A stretch of 34,477 nucleotides of DNA, from assembly GCA_012727895.1 (NCBI GenBank), contig JAAYGG010000088.1:1-34477 (forward strand). Reading direction: 5' to 3'. The DNA is from Bacillota bacterium (GTDB lineage: Bacteria; Bacillota; UBA4882; UBA10575). The notes below the pieces were generated by a model. The model worked only from the letters and a program-made list of their open reading frames with translations. It was not told the DNA's origin and did no database searches. A program made the position numbers and the translations under genes. This document shows, in pieces, positions 12,235 through 30,538 of the stretch (its first letter is position 1; each line of letters begins with the position of its first letter).

Positions 12235-13065
12235 TTAATCTACATATTCCTCAATCTCGGTAATGGGGATCTCCAGGCGTTCCTTATCGGGAAACTCCAG
12301 GACCACCGTCTCCTCTTCCTGGTTCTCTTCCACGATCACGCCCTGTCGCCCTTGGTACGTGACGGTGGCGCCCACGGAAGACTCCTTTTCCTCTTTATTT
12401 TTATACTGGTCGCACTCGAATTTCAGGCAACACATGAGGCGCCCGCAGATCCCCGAGATCTTGGTGGGGTTCAGGGAAAGGTTCTGCTCCTTCGCCATTT
12501 TAATGGAGACGGGCTCAAAGTCCCCCAAAAACGTGCTGCAACAGAGAGGCCGGCCGCACGGTCCCAACCCTCCCAGCATCTTTGCCTCATCCCGCACGCC
12601 GATCTGGCGCAACTCGATCCGGACCCGGAAAACCGATGCCAGATCCCGGACCAGTTCCCTGAAGTCCACCCGGCCGTCGGCGGTAAAGTAAAAAATGATT
12701 TTATTCCGGTCAAAGGTGTATTCAACATCAACCAATTTCATGGCCAGCTTATGCTGGCTGATCTTCTCCAGCCCGATTTCAAAGGCTTTTTTCTCTTTTT
12801 CCTTATTCTCCAAGAGTTTTTCCCGGTCTTTCTCTGTGGCGACCCGGTGCACCTTTTTTAACGGCTGGGTAATCTCCTCTTCCGGGAGTTCTTTCGGCCC
12901 CACCATTACCGTGCCGTACTCCAACCCCCGGACCGTCTCCACAATTACATCCATCCCGGGTTTCAGTTCCAGTTCACTGGGGTCGAAATAATAGATTTTC
13001 CCCGCTTTTTTAAATCTAACACCAACTACGGTGAAGGTTTTCTGTTCTTGTCCAGTCTCGTTCAT
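12235..13065 (-). CDS. ricT: RicT (YaaT), PSP1-domain iron-sulfur protein
   Basis: 276 residues. In Bacillus subtilis RicT works with RicA and RicF in a complex that carries iron-sulfur clusters, activates RNase Y processing and affects sporulation and competence. The PSP1 domain is clear, with a Cys-rich core: GPCGRPLCC (C170, C175, C176) and CGRLMCCLKFEC (C207, C212, C213, C218), which are the expected cluster ligands. A charged stretch at 75-100 (EKDREKLLENKEKEKK) is likely helical. I start it at the ATG at 13065, whose first base overlaps the holB stop; a TTG one codon earlier is possible. It is the last gene of the tmk-darA-yaaR-holB-ricT block, in the same order as in Bacillus. Confidence 0.95.
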   Translation of the reverse strand: MNETGQEQKTFTVVGVRFKKAGKIYYFDPSELELKPGMDVIVETVRGLEYGTVMVGPKELPEEEITQPLKKVHRVATEKDREKLLENKEKEKKAFEIGLEKISQHKLAMKLVDVEYTFDRNKIIFYFTADGRVDFRELVRDLASVFRVRIELRQIGVRDEAKMLGGLGPCGRPLCCSTFLGDFEPVSIKMAKEQNLSLNPTKISGICGRLMCCLKFECDQYKNKEEKESSVGATVTYQGRQGVIVEENQEEETVVLEFPDKERLEIPITEIEEYVD

Positions 13066-17045: not shown

Positions 17046-17086
17046 TAAAAACCCGCTCCCCGCCCACGACGGGCAGGGGAGCGGGT
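17046..17086 (-). terminator. strong intrinsic terminator of sppA
   Basis: On minus, a 15-bp GC-rich stem (17071-17086 with 17051-17065, one bulged base) with a 5-nt loop is followed by five T (17046-17050). It stands about 55 bp after the sppA-like stop and insulates it from the decarboxylase-tmk run. The stretch 16985-17050 downstream is AT-rich and probably carries the promoter of that run, but no clear boxes can be assigned. Confidence 0.92.
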
Positions 17087-17141: not shown

Positions 17142-19562
17142 TCAGGGCAGGGTGAATTCCAAGGGCAACACTGGGAGCGGCTCCCCGTTATACCGGCTAC
17201 GGAACTGAACCGCTTCCAGTAACGGGTCTCTCTCCTTTTCCTCGATCCCGATCAACCGGGCCATAATCCCCCCTGTGCCAAACCAGCCCATTGCCGGGTA
17301 TTCAACTATTCTCACCCTTGCACCCGGGGAAAGGCCGGCTTTTTTCCTGGCCAGCCGTATGGCATCGGCAAGACCGCCAATCTCATCAACGAGCCCAATC
17401 TCCACACCGTCTTGACCCGACCAGACCCGCCCCTGGGCATAGGTTTCTATTTCCTCGTATTCCATACCCCTGCCTTCCGCCGCTTTCCGCAGGAATTCCT
17501 CATACACAGCGGCGCTTCTGGCTTTGAGGATCTCATATTCATCTTCCCGCAGGGGCCTGTCGGCCAGATGGATATTGACCAGGGGCAGCTGAATTCCAAA
17601 GCCAAAATCGGCAAAATGCCCCCGTTTGACCAGGTCGGTGCTTAAGCCAATCTTATCTTTGAAGCCCTTATCGTAAAACCACGAGCTGATGACGCCAATT
17701 GAGCCGGTAATGGTTTGCGGGGCGGCAAAGATGGTCTCCCCGTACATGGAGAGCCAGTACCCGCCGGAAGCGGCGACATCCCCCTGGCTGACAATGACCG
17801 GTTTTTTCTCACCCGCTTCGCGCAAAGCCTCGGCGACAATGTCGGCGGCCAGCGGGTCGCCGCCGGGCGAATCCACCCGGAAGACAATGGCTTTCACCCG
17901 CCGGTTCTCCCCGGCCTGCCAGATCTCATGGGCAAGGCGGCGGGCGCCAATCCCCATATCCAAATCACAGGCGCCAAGGGCGTAGATAACAGCAATCTGC
18001 GGCGGCTCGCCCCAATAATCATCGAACGGTTCGTTCCGCACGGGTATTGCGGAAGGGGTAATCAGGGGCTGCTTCTTCCCTTCAACTTCCTCGATGTGCT
18101 CATAGATCTTGTCCCAGCGCCCGACCGCATCCACCAGGTTATATTCGAGAGCCTTGTCCGGGCTGATAAAGCCCACCTTATTCACGAGTTGTTCGTAGTC
18201 GGCTTCCGGGATCTCCCTGGCGGCCATGATATCCGCCCGTACCAGTTCATAAGAGACATCGGCCAACCGCTGGTACTGTTCACGGTCGGCCGCGCTCATC
18301 TCCTCCCGGGTAAACGTCTCCGCGGCCGATTTGTAAGTGGAGAACCGGATCTCTTCCACCCCGATGCCAAGTTTCTCCAGCATCCCCTTGACATATCCCC
18401 GGCCGTACGCAAATCCGGTCAGTTGCACAACGCCTTGCGGATCCATAACAATATAATCGGCCACAGAAGCCAGGTGATAAGTGGTGATCCCGCACCGGTC
18501 GATATAAACCAGCACGGGCTTGCCGGTCTTTTGAAATTCGTGGAGTCTTTCCCGGATCTCCCATTGCATCACCGGCGAGGCATACATCCCCGAAAGGTTC
18601 AGGGCAATCCCGCTGATGGTCGGGTCCCGTTCCGCATCGGCAATTGCCTGCAAGACACCTTGTAACGTATTGGAGTAATCATAAAAACCGTACCGCCGGT
18701 ACCCCAGGTTGCCCCCTAGATCCAGGTAGAGATAGTTTTTACCCCGGCGTGCATAACGGTCACTAAGCGTCCGGTCGTATGCCCCGAACCGGATCCCGTG
18801 CGTGGTGGTGGCAGTCCCGTCGAACTCCGGGGTGGACCTGACCTGCTGGGTGTAGCCGAAACGGCCCAGGCTCAAGGAGGCCCCCACCGTCCAAATCTCT
18901 TCCTGAAATTGCCCGGTGAAGCGCAGGCCGGGAAGGCCCTCATAAATAAAGCCCACAGCCCAGCGGCCCTCCCCGGGGCTTTCACCTTTATCCATCCGTA
19001 AACCGGTGAAAACTGTTAACGTCTCATTGCCCCTTGGGCGCAGGGCCAAATCGACAGCGAGTTGCTGTTCCCCCCTGTATATACCCTGGTACCCCGTGGC
19101 GCCAAAGGAAAACCACCGGGTGGGGCGGGCCAAAAAACCCACTGTCAACAGGCGGTCACGGGCAAAGAGTTCCGTATCCCCCCGGGACCAGCCGTAACCC
19201 AACCCCAGGGCAAAAGACTTGTCCCCGATAGCCGTGGAAAGCCGGTAATCAATGACGGATCCGGCTGTAGTCCCTTCGCGAACCATCCCAAAACCGAGCT
19301 GGGGAAGGGCCCCAAAAAAGCCCCACTTCTGAAGTTTGCCGGCGGTGTTTTCCTGGTTGGACCAGGTAAAATAGAAATCGGGCTGGTGCAGATAGATCAG
19401 GGCCGCCGGGTTATCATAGCCATACAACCCGTATTGATAAGCGCCGCCGGTTGCCGGTGCCAAATCATGGTGCAGGGGAAGGGCCGCCTGAAGAGAGGCG
19501 GGCGCCAGCAAAAAAATCAGCACAAAAAAAATAAAAAAAATGCCTTTTACCCCTTTTCCCAT
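17142..19562 (-). CDS. sppA: SppA-type protease fused to N-terminal barrel-like domain
   Basis: 806 residues. The C-terminal ~530 residues are a tandem (67K-type) SppA peptidase, which degrades cleaved signal peptides and other membrane-associated peptides. The catalytic pair is intact: Lys411 in YKSAAETFTREEMS and Ser599 in GDVAASGGYW, with SPGGD at 565-569 and TGSIGV following. The N-terminus is a signal peptide (to about residue 26). Residues ~27-270 are not part of ordinary SppA: they have a GYDNPAAL motif (48-55), like the NPAAL/NPAGL found near the start of FadL/PorV-type barrels, then repeated short alternating strands rich in Gly, Tyr, Phe and Trp. This suggests an outer-membrane barrel that holds the protease on the periplasmic side. 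It has a strong promoter and terminator of its own. The peptidase call is firm, the barrel is inference. Confidence 0.88.
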   Translation of the reverse strand: MGKGVKGIFFIFFVLIFLLAPASLQAALPLHHDLAPATGGAYQYGLYGYDNPAALIYLHQPDFYFTWSNQENTAGKLQKWGFFGALPQLGFGMVREGTTAGSVIDYRLSTAIGDKSFALGLGYGWSRGDTELFARDRLLTVGFLARPTRWFSFGATGYQGIYRGEQQLAVDLALRPRGNETLTVFTGLRMDKGESPGEGRWAVGFIYEGLPGLRFTGQFQEEIWTVGASLSLGRFGYTQQVRSTPEFDGTATTTHGIRFGAYDRTLSDRYARRGKNYLYLDLGGNLGYRRYGFYDYSNTLQGVLQAIADAERDPTISGIALNLSGMYASPVMQWEIRERLHEFQKTGKPVLVYIDRCGITTYHLASVADYIVMDPQGVVQLTGFAYGRGYVKGMLEKLGIGVEEIRFSTYKSAAETFTREEMSAADREQYQRLADVSYELVRADIMAAREIPEADYEQLVNKVGFISPDKALEYNLVDAVGRWDKIYEHIEEVEGKKQPLITPSAIPVRNEPFDDYWGEPPQIAVIYALGACDLDMGIGARRLAHEIWQAGENRRVKAIVFRVDSPGGDPLAADIVAEALREAGEKKPVIVSQGDVAASGGYWLSMYGETIFAAPQTITGSIGVISSWFYDKGFKDKIGLSTDLVKRGHFADFGFGIQLPLVNIHLADRPLREDEYEILKARSAAVYEEFLRKAAEGRGMEYEEIETYAQGRVWSGQDGVEIGLVDEIGGLADAIRLARKKAGLSPGARVRIVEYPAMGWFGTGGIMARLIGIEEKERDPLLEAVQFRSRYNGEPLPVLPLEFTLP

Positions 19563-19635: not shown

Positions 19636-19664
19636 AGCATAACAAAAAACCCCATTTTTGTCAA
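19636..19664 (-). promoter_or_regulatory. near-consensus sigma-A promoter of sppA
   Basis: TTGACA (19659-19664), a 17-bp spacer and TATGCT (19636-19641) on minus. The -35 box begins one base after the stop codon of the DUF2508 gene. The predicted leader is about 65-70 nt and ends in an AAAGGAGTG ribosome binding site. This is the best promoter in the window. Confidence 0.88.
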
Positions 19665-20003: not shown

Positions 20004-21008
20004 TTAATTTCTTTTCTTTTGGTACCAGAAAATGCTGAAAACCGGTTTTTTACGGAGAAGGAGCCAAAGGGCCACCCCAACCCCAATAAGGGGCAAAAGG
20101 AGCCAGGGCTGCCAAGAGTCCCATTTCCTCCCCGTCCCCACCGGGTACAAACAGGCCATTTGCCCGCCGGGCAACACCTGCAACTGCTTCTCCTGGGCGT
20201 ACCTGCCGCCGGCCGGGGCCAGCAAATCAAGGACCCGCGGGACGTTTTCCTCCCCGGAACCGCCACCGAAGAACCACTCATCCGCCTCTTTTTTGATCTC
20301 CCGGAAAAAGCCCGGGCCAAACCCGTCATAAGAGCCGGTAAAAACATAATACCGCCAGTTGGCTTTGGGGGTCCCGATAAGCCGCTTTGGCACCGCCAGC
20401 CGGATCAGGTCCTCCGCCTGGAGATAGGCGGCGGTGATTGCCGTCTCCTGTAACCTCCCGGTCGTATCCCGGTGATAAACGGCACTGTTCTCCCAGCCGA
20501 CCCCGGTAAGGGCAAATTCCCACCGGTGCCGGGGAGAAAAGACCACCCGTGGTCCTTCGTTTACCGGTTCACTGTTGGTGCCGTTCCCGGTGGCAATATA
20601 GATATGGATCACCGGGTGAATAAAACCCTCCGGCGCCACCCAGGGGTTGGTGACGTTCTTGATCTTCACATCAAAGTAAATCTCTTCCCCCCGGCGGTCA
20701 CTCCAAACCCGGAAGGCCAAAAGGTCGAAGAGGCCTTCATAAGGAGCAAACGCCGGGTCACTGGGGTAAATATAGCTTCCCGGGCCGTAATCGTCCCCCT
20801 CCGGGTCCTCGGCATAAAAATGGACTGTCACATCGTCATTGGGCCGGGCGCCGGCAGCCGACGCACCGGATGGGCTGACCACCGGACTCCTCGTACCGGG
20901 CAGATTGCTCCCGCCCGCCGGAGCCGGGCAAAAGGCGAGCACCAGCCAAAAGGTGACTACCGGCCAGAAAAATAGGGGACAAACCCCCCATGCGCGCAGG
21001 AAACGCAT
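20004..21008 (-). CDS. exported anchored protein with glucodextranase-C/DOMON-like domain
   Basis: 334 residues. A signal peptide or N-terminal anchor (FLRAWGVCPLFFWPVVTFWLVLAFCPAPAGG) is followed by one beta-rich domain and a C-terminal membrane helix WLLLPLIGVGVALWLLL with a basic tail. The domain starts with DPEGDDYGPGSYIYPSDPAFAP (~67-88), then DLLAFRVWSDRRGEEIYFDVKIKNVTNPW and HPVIHIYIATGN, which matches the C-terminal DOMON-like domain of glucodextranase and of bacterial amylopullulanases, where it probably binds sugars. No catalytic domain is present. I start it at the ATG at 21008 with AAGGAGG 8 nt upstream, not at 21080. The protein would face the outside, fixed to the cell membrane. 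It could be a sugar-binding or sensing component; the substrate is unknown. Confidence 0.72.
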   Translation of the reverse strand: MRFLRAWGVCPLFFWPVVTFWLVLAFCPAPAGGSNLPGTRSPVVSPSGASAAGARPNDDVTVHFYAEDPEGDDYGPGSYIYPSDPAFAPYEGLFDLLAFRVWSDRRGEEIYFDVKIKNVTNPWVAPEGFIHPVIHIYIATGNGTNSEPVNEGPRVVFSPRHRWEFALTGVGWENSAVYHRDTTGRLQETAITAAYLQAEDLIRLAVPKRLIGTPKANWRYYVFTGSYDGFGPGFFREIKKEADEWFFGGGSGEENVPRVLDLLAPAGGRYAQEKQLQVLPGGQMACLYPVGTGRKWDSWQPWLLLPLIGVGVALWLLLRKKPVFSIFWYQKKRN

Positions 21009-21154
21009 CCTCCTCCCCTCCTTCTTCTCCAGATCTACGCCGGGAGGAAAGGAAGTATGCTTTGGGGTTAATTTCCCCAATCTTTTGGCAGACTAATATA
21101 GCATTTGGGAAGAAGCTGTAACAAAAGAAAATCCAAAGAAGGCAGGGTGGGAAG

Positions 21155-28037: not shown

Positions 28038-28159
28038 GGAGATATCGGGCCGGGAGAGAATTATTACTATAGAAGAAATTAAGCCGGCGAGTTTGAGAAA
28101 GAGATAGGATTAGAGAAACAGTACAACTGGGGAACCAGGCAAGATTTAGGAAGGGGTTG

Positions 28160-30538
28160 ATGGCCATCAAATTCACCGATGGAAACTGGCTGGTCAAAAA
28201 GGGGGTTAAGATCTTCTCCCCGGCCGCCCTTTATGATTACGAGACCGGGGATGGAACCCTGACCTTGTACGCACCGGCCCGTCCGATTCATCACAAGGGC
28301 GATACTTTGCAGGGACCCTTATTCACTATCGAGCTTTCTTCACCGGCGCCGGAGGTGATCAGGGTCCGTTTTTATCATTATAAAGGGGCGATTACGCAAG
28401 GCAACTCACCCGCCTTTACCATCAGTGAAGCGCCGGATGAGATTAGAGCGGGCACTCCCGTGCAGATCAGCGACGACGGCGATTACCTGGTTTACAAGGC
28501 AGGGAATCTGTCGGCCCGGATCAGGAAAAACCCCTGGTCAATCCGATTTTTCCACGGGGAGAAACTACTGACCGGCAGCGACTACCGGAGTATGGGCTAT
28601 ATCCAGACTGGCGACGATGATCTGCCCGAATACGGTTTCGGGGGCAGTAGTGTCTATATGCGGGAACAACTGAGCCTGGAGGTGGGCGAGGGCGTCTACG
28701 GGTTGGGGGAGCGTTTCACCGCCTTCGTCAAGAACGGGCAGACGGTGGAGATCTGGAACAAGGACGGGGGAACCGGGAGCGACCAGGCTTATAAAAATGT
28801 CCCCTTCTATTTGACGAATAGGGGCTACGGCGTGTTTGTCAACCATCCGGAGCACGTCTCCTTTGAAGTGGCTACGGAACGCGTCTCCAAGGTGCAGTTC
28901 AGCGTGGCCGGCGAATACCTGGAGTACTTCATCATCAACGGCCCGGGGTTAAAAGATGTTTTACAGCGGTATACCGGGTTGACCGGCCGCCCGGCCCTCC
29001 CTCCGGCCTGGTCCTTCGGCCTCTGGTTAACCACCTCCTTTACCACAGATTACAATGAGGAGATCGTCAACTCGTTCATTGACGGGATGGCCGCCCGGGA
29101 TCTTCCCTTGCATGTCTTCCATTTTGATTGTTTCTGGATGAAGGAGTTCCATTGGACCGATTTTCAATGGAATAAAGAGGCCTTTCCCGACCCCGAGGGG
29201 ATGCTGCGCCGCTTGAAAGAAAAGGGCCTTAGGATCTCGGTCTGGATCAACCCCTATATCGCCCAGAGGTCGGCCTTGTTCGACGAGGGCGCGGCCAAAG
29301 GCTACCTGCTGAAGAAGAAGGACGGCACGGTTTGGCAGGGCGACCTCTGGCAACCGGGCATGGGCATTGTCGATTTCACCAACCCCGAAGCCTGCGCCTG
29401 GTACGCCGGGAAGCTCCGCAGCCTGTTGGCGATGGGGGTTGACACCTTCAAGACGGACTTCGGCGAGAGGATCCCAACGGACGTGGTTTACTACGACGGT
29501 TCCGATCCTTACAAGATGCACAATTACTACTCTTACCTCTACAACCGGGTGGTCTTTAATGTTCTCAAGGAAAAGTTCGGGGAGAACAAGGCTGTGGTCT
29601 TCGCCCGTTCCGCCACGGCCGGGTCGCAAAAATACCCCGTCCACTGGGGTGGGGATTGCTTCAGCTCCTACCAGTCCATGGCGGAGACCCTCCGCGGCGG
29701 GCTCTCCCTCGGCCTCTGCGGGTTTGGGTTCTGGTCCCATGACATCGGGGGTTTTGAAGAGACGGCCACCCCGGACCTGTATAAACGCTGGGTTGCCTTC
29801 GGCCTTCTCTCTTCCCATAGCCGGCTGCACGGCAATGCCTCTTACCGGGTACCCTGGCTCTTCGATGAAGAGGCCGTTACCGTCCTGCGATTTTTCACCC
29901 AATTAAAATGCCGCCTGATGCCCTACATCTACCAGGCGGCCTGTGCAGCGCGGGACGAAGGCCTGCCGGTTCTCCGTCCGATGGTCCTGGAGTTCCCGGA
30001 CGATCCGGGCTGCCGCTACCTCGATACCCAATACATGCTGGGCGAGGCACTGCTGGTGGCGCCGGTCTTCAGCGAAGACGGGGAAGTCTCCTATTATTTA
30101 CCCCCCGGCCAGTGGAGTAACTTCTTCACCGGCGAAAAGATCGCCGGGGGCCGCTGGGTTAAGGAAAAACACGGGTACCTGAGCCTGCCGCTGCTGGTCA
30201 GGCCCAACCAAATCATCGCCGTTGGCAACAACAGCCGGCGGCCGGATTATGATTTTGCCGCCAACGTCACGCTTCACCTCTTCAACCTGGAGGAGGGCGC
30301 TGCCGCCTCAACCCGGGTCTATAATATGGAAGGCCGGCCTGAGCTTATGGTCCGCGCCGAACGGCGGGGGCAGAAAATTCTTCTCCAGGCCGAGGCCGCT
30401 GATAAACCCTGGTCCCTGCTCCTCCGCGGCGCCTGGCAGGTAAAAGAGGTCACAGGCGGGAGGTTGACAGCCAAAGACGGCGAGAGCCTGATTATCCCGG
30501 ATCATTACAACGGCGAACTCACTATTGAGCTGTTGTGA
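28160..30538 (+). CDS. yicI: GH31 alpha-xylosidase (YicI type)
   Basis: 792 residues. This cytoplasmic glycoside hydrolase removes alpha-linked xylose from the non-reducing end of xyloglucan-type oligosaccharides such as isoprimeverose. The GH31 barrel carries the nucleophile D433 in KTDFGERIP and the acid/base D499 in HWGGDCFSS; their 66-residue spacing equals that of E. coli YicI. The FHFDCFWMKEF stretch (320-330), with Cys-Phe-Trp in the substrate pocket, is what separates alpha-xylosidases from alpha-glucosidases of the family. An N-terminal beta-sandwich (1-280) and C-terminal beta domains (from ~640) flank the barrel. No signal peptide is present. The ATG at 28160 has GGAAGGGG upstream; a TTG one codon earlier is possible. 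No transporter or regulator gene is next to it. Confidence 0.95.
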   Translation: MAIKFTDGNWLVKKGVKIFSPAALYDYETGDGTLTLYAPARPIHHKGDTLQGPLFTIELSSPAPEVIRVRFYHYKGAITQGNSPAFTISEAPDEIRAGTPVQISDDGDYLVYKAGNLSARIRKNPWSIRFFHGEKLLTGSDYRSMGYIQTGDDDLPEYGFGGSSVYMREQLSLEVGEGVYGLGERFTAFVKNGQTVEIWNKDGGTGSDQAYKNVPFYLTNRGYGVFVNHPEHVSFEVATERVSKVQFSVAGEYLEYFIINGPGLKDVLQRYTGLTGRPALPPAWSFGLWLTTSFTTDYNEEIVNSFIDGMAARDLPLHVFHFDCFWMKEFHWTDFQWNKEAFPDPEGMLRRLKEKGLRISVWINPYIAQRSALFDEGAAKGYLLKKKDGTVWQGDLWQPGMGIVDFTNPEACAWYAGKLRSLLAMGVDTFKTDFGERIPTDVVYYDGSDPYKMHNYYSYLYNRVVFNVLKEKFGENKAVVFARSATAGSQKYPVHWGGDCFSSYQSMAETLRGGLSLGLCGFGFWSHDIGGFEETATPDLYKRWVAFGLLSSHSRLHGNASYRVPWLFDEEAVTVLRFFTQLKCRLMPYIYQAACAARDEGLPVLRPMVLEFPDDPGCRYLDTQYMLGEALLVAPVFSEDGEVSYYLPPGQWSNFFTGEKIAGGRWVKEKHGYLSLPLLVRPNQIIAVGNNSRRPDYDFAANVTLHLFNLEEGAAASTRVYNMEGRPELMVRAERRGQKILLQAEAADKPWSLLLRGAWQVKEVTGGRLTAKDGESLIIPDHYNGELTIELL

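Follow-up and report, generated by a model that had tools for sequence, protein, structure and literature searches.

SppA has been portrayed as an enzyme of the inner membrane that carries a short helix at its N-terminus (e.g. PMC13236525, 2026). Within the stretch of Bacillota DNA analyzed here (34,477 nt, hereafter the window) we distinguished a gene whose product lacks this helix and carries instead a cleavable-type signal peptide, followed by a predicted beta-barrel and a tandem peptidase region, in this order. The architecture of this protein, referred to as barrel-SppA, raises the question of which membrane holds the peptidase and how such a gene came to reside in its host.

The open reading frame, proposed in an earlier note made from the sequence alone, is real; it extends from an ATG to a stop codon on the minus strand, which the note had left unstated. 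Its features, together with two further loci of the host genome, are summarized in Table 1. Hydropathy peaks at residue 8 (2.44), and no second transmembrane helix was identified anywhere in the protein. The strong terminator downstream of the gene suggests that it forms its own transcription unit. Upstream of it a promoter-like site was recognized, although shuffled sequence gives equally many such sites.

Table 1. Features of the barrel-SppA gene and of two other host loci (window positions, unless a host locus is given)
Feature	Position	Strand	Remarks
Complete ORF, barrel-SppA	17142..19562	-	806 aa; full-length relatives 75-78% (genus), 34-47% (other phyla)
Sec signal peptide, residues 1-26	19485..19562	-	hydrophobic core ~8-26, AXA-like end
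Hatch-like N-terminal segment, residues 27-61	19380..19484	-	modelled helix 52-57 ahead of strand 1
GYDNPAAL motif, residues 48-55	19398-19421	-	conserved in 27 sequences
Predicted 14-strand transmembrane beta-barrel, residues 62-259	18786..19379	-	AlphaFold2, Foldseek, amphipathic strands
Short linker, residues 260-276	18735..18785	-	joins last barrel strand to first SppA strand
Tandem SppA (S49) region, residues 277-745	17328..18734	-	Pfam, TIGR and PDB matches
Catalytic Lys411 codon	18330..18332	-	aligns with YKSA motif of E. coli SppA
Catalytic Ser599 codon (AASGGYW)	17766..17768	-	alignment with E. coli SppA
Promoter-like TTGACA-17-TATGCT, extended TG	19636..19664	-	consensus only; just upstream of the ORF
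Intrinsic terminator: CCCGCTCCCC stem, loop, GGGGAGCGGG, then TTTTT	17052..17085	-	strong
Outer-membrane gene cluster of host	G000:C88 (L099:874-16607)		
Ordinary host SppA	G000:C132, L024:1089-2075		

On the basis of its sequence, the C-terminal part is unambiguously an SppA. The Pfam family Peptidase_S49 matches it in two stretches (1.3e-66), i.e. two S49 repeats, TIGR00705 covers residues 297-745 (5e-88), and E. coli SppA (PDB 3bez) was matched at 9e-53. The catalytic lysine (K411) lies in the first repeat and the catalytic serine (S599) in the second; both align with the catalytic pair of the E. coli enzyme and are invariant in 27/27 full-length relatives, as befits the intact tandem SppA recognized in the earlier note. 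The TIGR00705 score (295.9 bits) is below the equivalog cut-off of 311.45, so barrel-SppA is filed as an SppA variant and not as a 67K SppA, while its TIGR00706 score exceeds the respective cut-off. The 67K SppA of E. coli (S49; PDB 3bez/3bf0; TIGR00705) resembles barrel-SppA in having tandem S49 repeats, with the lysine in the first and the serine in the second, and shares about 30% identity with residues 297-742. However, it begins with an N-terminal transmembrane helix, where barrel-SppA has the signal peptide and the predicted barrel. The full-length model is weak (pLDDT 59), so the arrangement of the domains was not predicted, and the Foldseek result for this model was taken for the SppA part only.

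No family of Pfam or NCBIfam matches residues ~27-275, in line with the earlier remark that about 240 residues after the signal peptide are foreign to ordinary SppA. The GYDNPAAL motif reported for this region is present, and among 27 sequences G48 and P52 are invariant, while N51, A53 and L55 are nearly invariant. AlphaFold2, run with a 27-sequence alignment of full-length relatives, predicted 14 beta strands, preceded by a short helix over the NPA motif (mean pLDDT of the N-terminal region 83.4, pTM 0.78). When this structure was compared with the PDB using Foldseek, the best 50 matches were all transmembrane barrels (OmpG, porins, TbuX, FadL and, from the type 9 secretion complex 8gl6, chain F, considered to be PorV). 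Among these 50, the best E-value was that of OmpG (3e-7), and the query-normalised TM-score was highest for 8gl6 chain F (0.57), with 0.54-0.55 for TbuX and FadL; the E-values are modest and the TM-scores range from 0.4 to 0.57.

The alternation of residues over the predicted strands, noted previously from the sequence, exceeds chance. The mean interface-hydrophobicity phase difference was 0.56, compared with 0.30 +/- 0.06 in shuffled strands (0/5000 as high), the outward side having been chosen for each strand in the shuffles as well. Outward strand positions are 75% hydrophobic and 4% charged, and inward ones 28% and 19%, respectively; turns are short on both sides of the barrel (2-9 residues). 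These predictions support a transmembrane barrel, the closure of which was judged from the strand count and the fold matches. The more specific proposal of a FadL/PorV-type barrel was supported at the level of fold but not of sequence: none of the 27 members matches the FadL/Toluene_X, PorV, UPF0164 or TraF families of Pfam, and a barrel profile retrieved no relevant chain from the PDB sequences.

Likeness to known barrels is thus confined to structure. The 14-strand hydrophobe channels FadL and TbuX share with the predicted form of barrel-SppA the strand number and an N-terminal hatch-like NPA segment, but they are 360-420 residues long and give no sequence-profile match, whereas the N-terminal part of barrel-SppA comprises about 270 residues, has short loops and is fused to an enzyme. 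PorV, the type 9 shuttle, is free-standing and shows fold likeness (TM 0.57) with no sequence match. OmpG, a 14-strand monomeric porin, has the same number of strands as predicted here, but differs in its long loops and in the lack of a hatch and an enzyme domain (11% identity).

An outer-membrane anchor presupposes an outer membrane. The host genome, a metagenome assembly of 2.3 Mb in 164 contigs, encodes three Omp85 proteins, the best of which is located in a cluster with the order TamB - BamA (with POTRA) - OmpH - LpxD - LptF/G - unknown 745-aa protein - LptC - LptA. The Pfam LptD barrel model found no match in this genome, and the 745-aa protein (L099:4395-6632, minus strand) gave no Pfam match; it occupies the position expected for LptD and may be a divergent form of it. 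A GPR protease gene is located within the window, and SpoIVA is encoded in the genome. Judged by gene content, the host is diderm, since BamA, TamB, OmpH, LpxD and Lpt-type genes are present, and a spore-former, since Gpr and SpoIVA are. The diderm spore-forming Firmicute suspected earlier is therefore upheld, the BamA, OmpH and Lpt-type genes having been sought and found in the same genome, with TamB in addition. The third Omp85-like protein (374 aa; G000:C119, L101:5112-7951) has no POTRA match, and its gene overlaps the adjoining gene for a Peptidase-MA / PD40 propeller protein; the two possibly form a surface-protein export pair.

The host also encodes an ordinary single-domain SppA of the 36K type (an open frame of 329 aa, having a hydrophobic helix at its N-terminus), and two SppA kinds thus coexist in one genome. 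The 36K SppA of Bacillus subtilis (PDB 3rst) has its catalytic fold in common with barrel-SppA but, unlike it, consists of a single S49 domain that is anchored by a helix in the cytoplasmic membrane.

Barrel-SppA occurs in 3/3 species of the host genus, and was not found in approximately 396 sampled genomes from the rest of the family, order, class and phylum, in searches that included the barrel profile. In a scan of named genomes, full-length relatives (39-41%) turned up in Bacterium BMS3Bbin03, in a member of the Ignavibacteriaceae and in one of the Spirochaetales. The architecture is present in 36 of the 82 sampled genomes from the phylum of BMS3Bbin03, and the full-length form in 23 of 297 from the Ignavibacteriaceae phylum, where most genomes contain, additionally or instead, a 67K SppA of ~600 aa that begins with a long hydrophobic helix. 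The SppA of Flavobacterium columnare likewise has an N-terminal hydrophobic helix (PMC13236525). Among Spirochaetota, 14/149 sampled genomes were positive at E <= 1e-10; ten of these were examined and proved to be divergent SppAs that carry an N-terminal region in the corresponding place, nine of them with an NPA motif. The Spirochaetota proteins (L088-L098), SppAs of ~820-860 aa with a barrel-like N-terminal region bearing this motif, form a separate divergent clade, and the tree support bearing on one versus two origins of the fusion is 64/18. Omp85 is present in all three other genomes checked that hold a full-length barrel-SppA. A search of plasmids for the barrel found none, and plasmid tandem SppAs match only from about residue 223 on, with no full-length barrel form. 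The fusion reported for this spore-former is thus present but not peculiar to it, and barrel-SppAs apparently constitute an undescribed multi-phylum family.

The position of the gene bears on its origin. In six genomes of the family or order that lack barrel-SppA, the gene order is S11 - MFS - glucodextran_C - (w19666) - decarboxylase - tmk - holB, and the w19666/glucodextranase-C-like and Orn/Lys/Arg decarboxylase genes adjoin; in the genus, the barrel-SppA gene is inserted exactly between them. A tree of 46 proteins places the genus inside the barrel-SppA clade of other phyla (support 96/97) and sets this clade apart from both 67K groups (100/100). The presence in a single genus of Bacillota, the insertion at a syntenic locus and the nesting among proteins of the Ignavibacteriaceae phylum indicate that the gene was apparently acquired by horizontal transfer. 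A lineage related to Ignavibacteriaceae is a candidate donor, the tree backbone there being unresolved. The GC content of the gene (0.574) equals that of the window, and its GC3 likewise equals that of the surroundings, which argues against a recent transfer.

We consider it probable that barrel-SppA is an outer-membrane-anchored, periplasm-facing enzyme, a variant paralogous to the 67K SppA of the inner membrane and gained by transfer. In place of the usual inner-membrane helix it would have a Sec signal peptide that is cleaved off, and then a 14-strand barrel of FadL/PorV-like fold with a hatch at its N-terminus, which the BAM machinery would insert into the outer membrane after export. Traits of integral outer-membrane proteins are present, i.e. 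the signal peptide, amphipathic strands and BamA in the genome. Both termini of an even-stranded outer-membrane barrel lie in the periplasm, so that the SppA domain would be placed on the inner face of the outer membrane, hanging beneath it ~17 residues from the last barrel strand. The SppA of E. coli (3bf0/3bez) is a tetrameric dome with four helices anchoring its rim; by analogy, if the tetramer were kept, the catalytic dome would rest on four barrels. The SppA domain would most likely degrade peptides near the outer membrane, candidate substrates being signal-peptide remnants, misfolded fragments of outer-membrane proteins and incoming antimicrobial peptides. Such peptide clearance, the most likely use of barrel-SppA, is suggested by analogy with Bacillus SppA (SppA-SppI), for which a contribution to the cell's resistance against lantibiotics and cationic peptides has been reported (PMC7568657). 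In Leptospira interrogans an SppA was reported among the abundant surface-labelled proteins (PMC8659334), which we regard only as a lead, since the labelled SppA need not be a barrel form and cytoplasmic proteins were labelled too.

The barrel might also do more than anchor the enzyme. If it were a working FadL-like pore with a hatch, hydrophobic or peptide ligands would pass straight to the cutting SppA dome; the conserved hatch-like NPA segment, the fold matches to FadL, TbuX and PorV, and the short linker between barrel and SppA agree with this. We nevertheless find such a function unlikely, as the short turns on both sides are unlike those of large-loop uptake channels, and barrels serving merely as anchors are common. 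A PorV-like docking or shuttle partner that brings the peptidase to another outer-membrane machine is suggested by the TM-score of 8gl6 chain F and by the many relatives in the Ignavibacteriaceae phylum, but the family extends to Spirochaetota and a Bacillota genus and no partner gene lies within the insertion, which makes this role improbable.

Two further readings would remove the anchor or the host. A soluble beta domain at the N-terminus, in a protein that is periplasmic or secreted, would fit the lack of a match to any Pfam barrel family; this reading seems very unlikely in view of the hydrophobic, almost uncharged outward faces and the exclusive occurrence of transmembrane barrels among the best 50 Foldseek matches. 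The gene could also derive from a contaminating contig, given a fragmented metagenomic assembly and the likeness of the gene to counterparts in other phyla, in which case neither the Bacillota host nor the spore-forming background would be real. This explanation is hardly credible and was rejected: host genes flank both sides in a 34-kb contig, the gene occupies the identical place in three separately assembled species, with flanking synteny that matches the family, and its GC content is that of the window.

A literature search yielded no description of a barrel-fused SppA, nor any experiment on the location or activity of a member of the family. No entry for the barrel region was found in Pfam or NCBIfam, so barrel-SppAs would be annotated simply as SppA. 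If the anchoring in the outer membrane is true, it places the SppA peptidase at the other membrane and offers a naturally occurring case in which the function of SppA can be studied; it would also mean that genes for single outer-membrane enzymes can pass into diderm Firmicutes. We give about an even chance to the broader picture, in which a second SppA kind exists in four or more phyla, a dome on a ring of barrels at the periplasmic side of the outer membrane that clears peptides there, as classical SppA does at the inner membrane, and whose gene has passed singly from phylum to phylum, even into a spore-forming diderm Firmicute.

Several neighbouring genes of the window were also distinguished. 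Between positions 13065 and 23928 the order S11 peptidase - MFS - glucodextranase-C-like - small ORF - decarboxylase - tmk - holB is conserved in the family and order. The glucodextranase-C-like gene (20004-21080, minus strand), which lies divergent from the MFS transporter gene, is conserved in the family and encodes a glucodextranase C-terminal, SLH-like module as its sole recognized domain. An alpha-xylosidase gene (28157-30538, plus strand; GH31, PRK10658), unrelated to barrel-SppA, is located beside a gene encoding D-Ala-D-Ala ligase.
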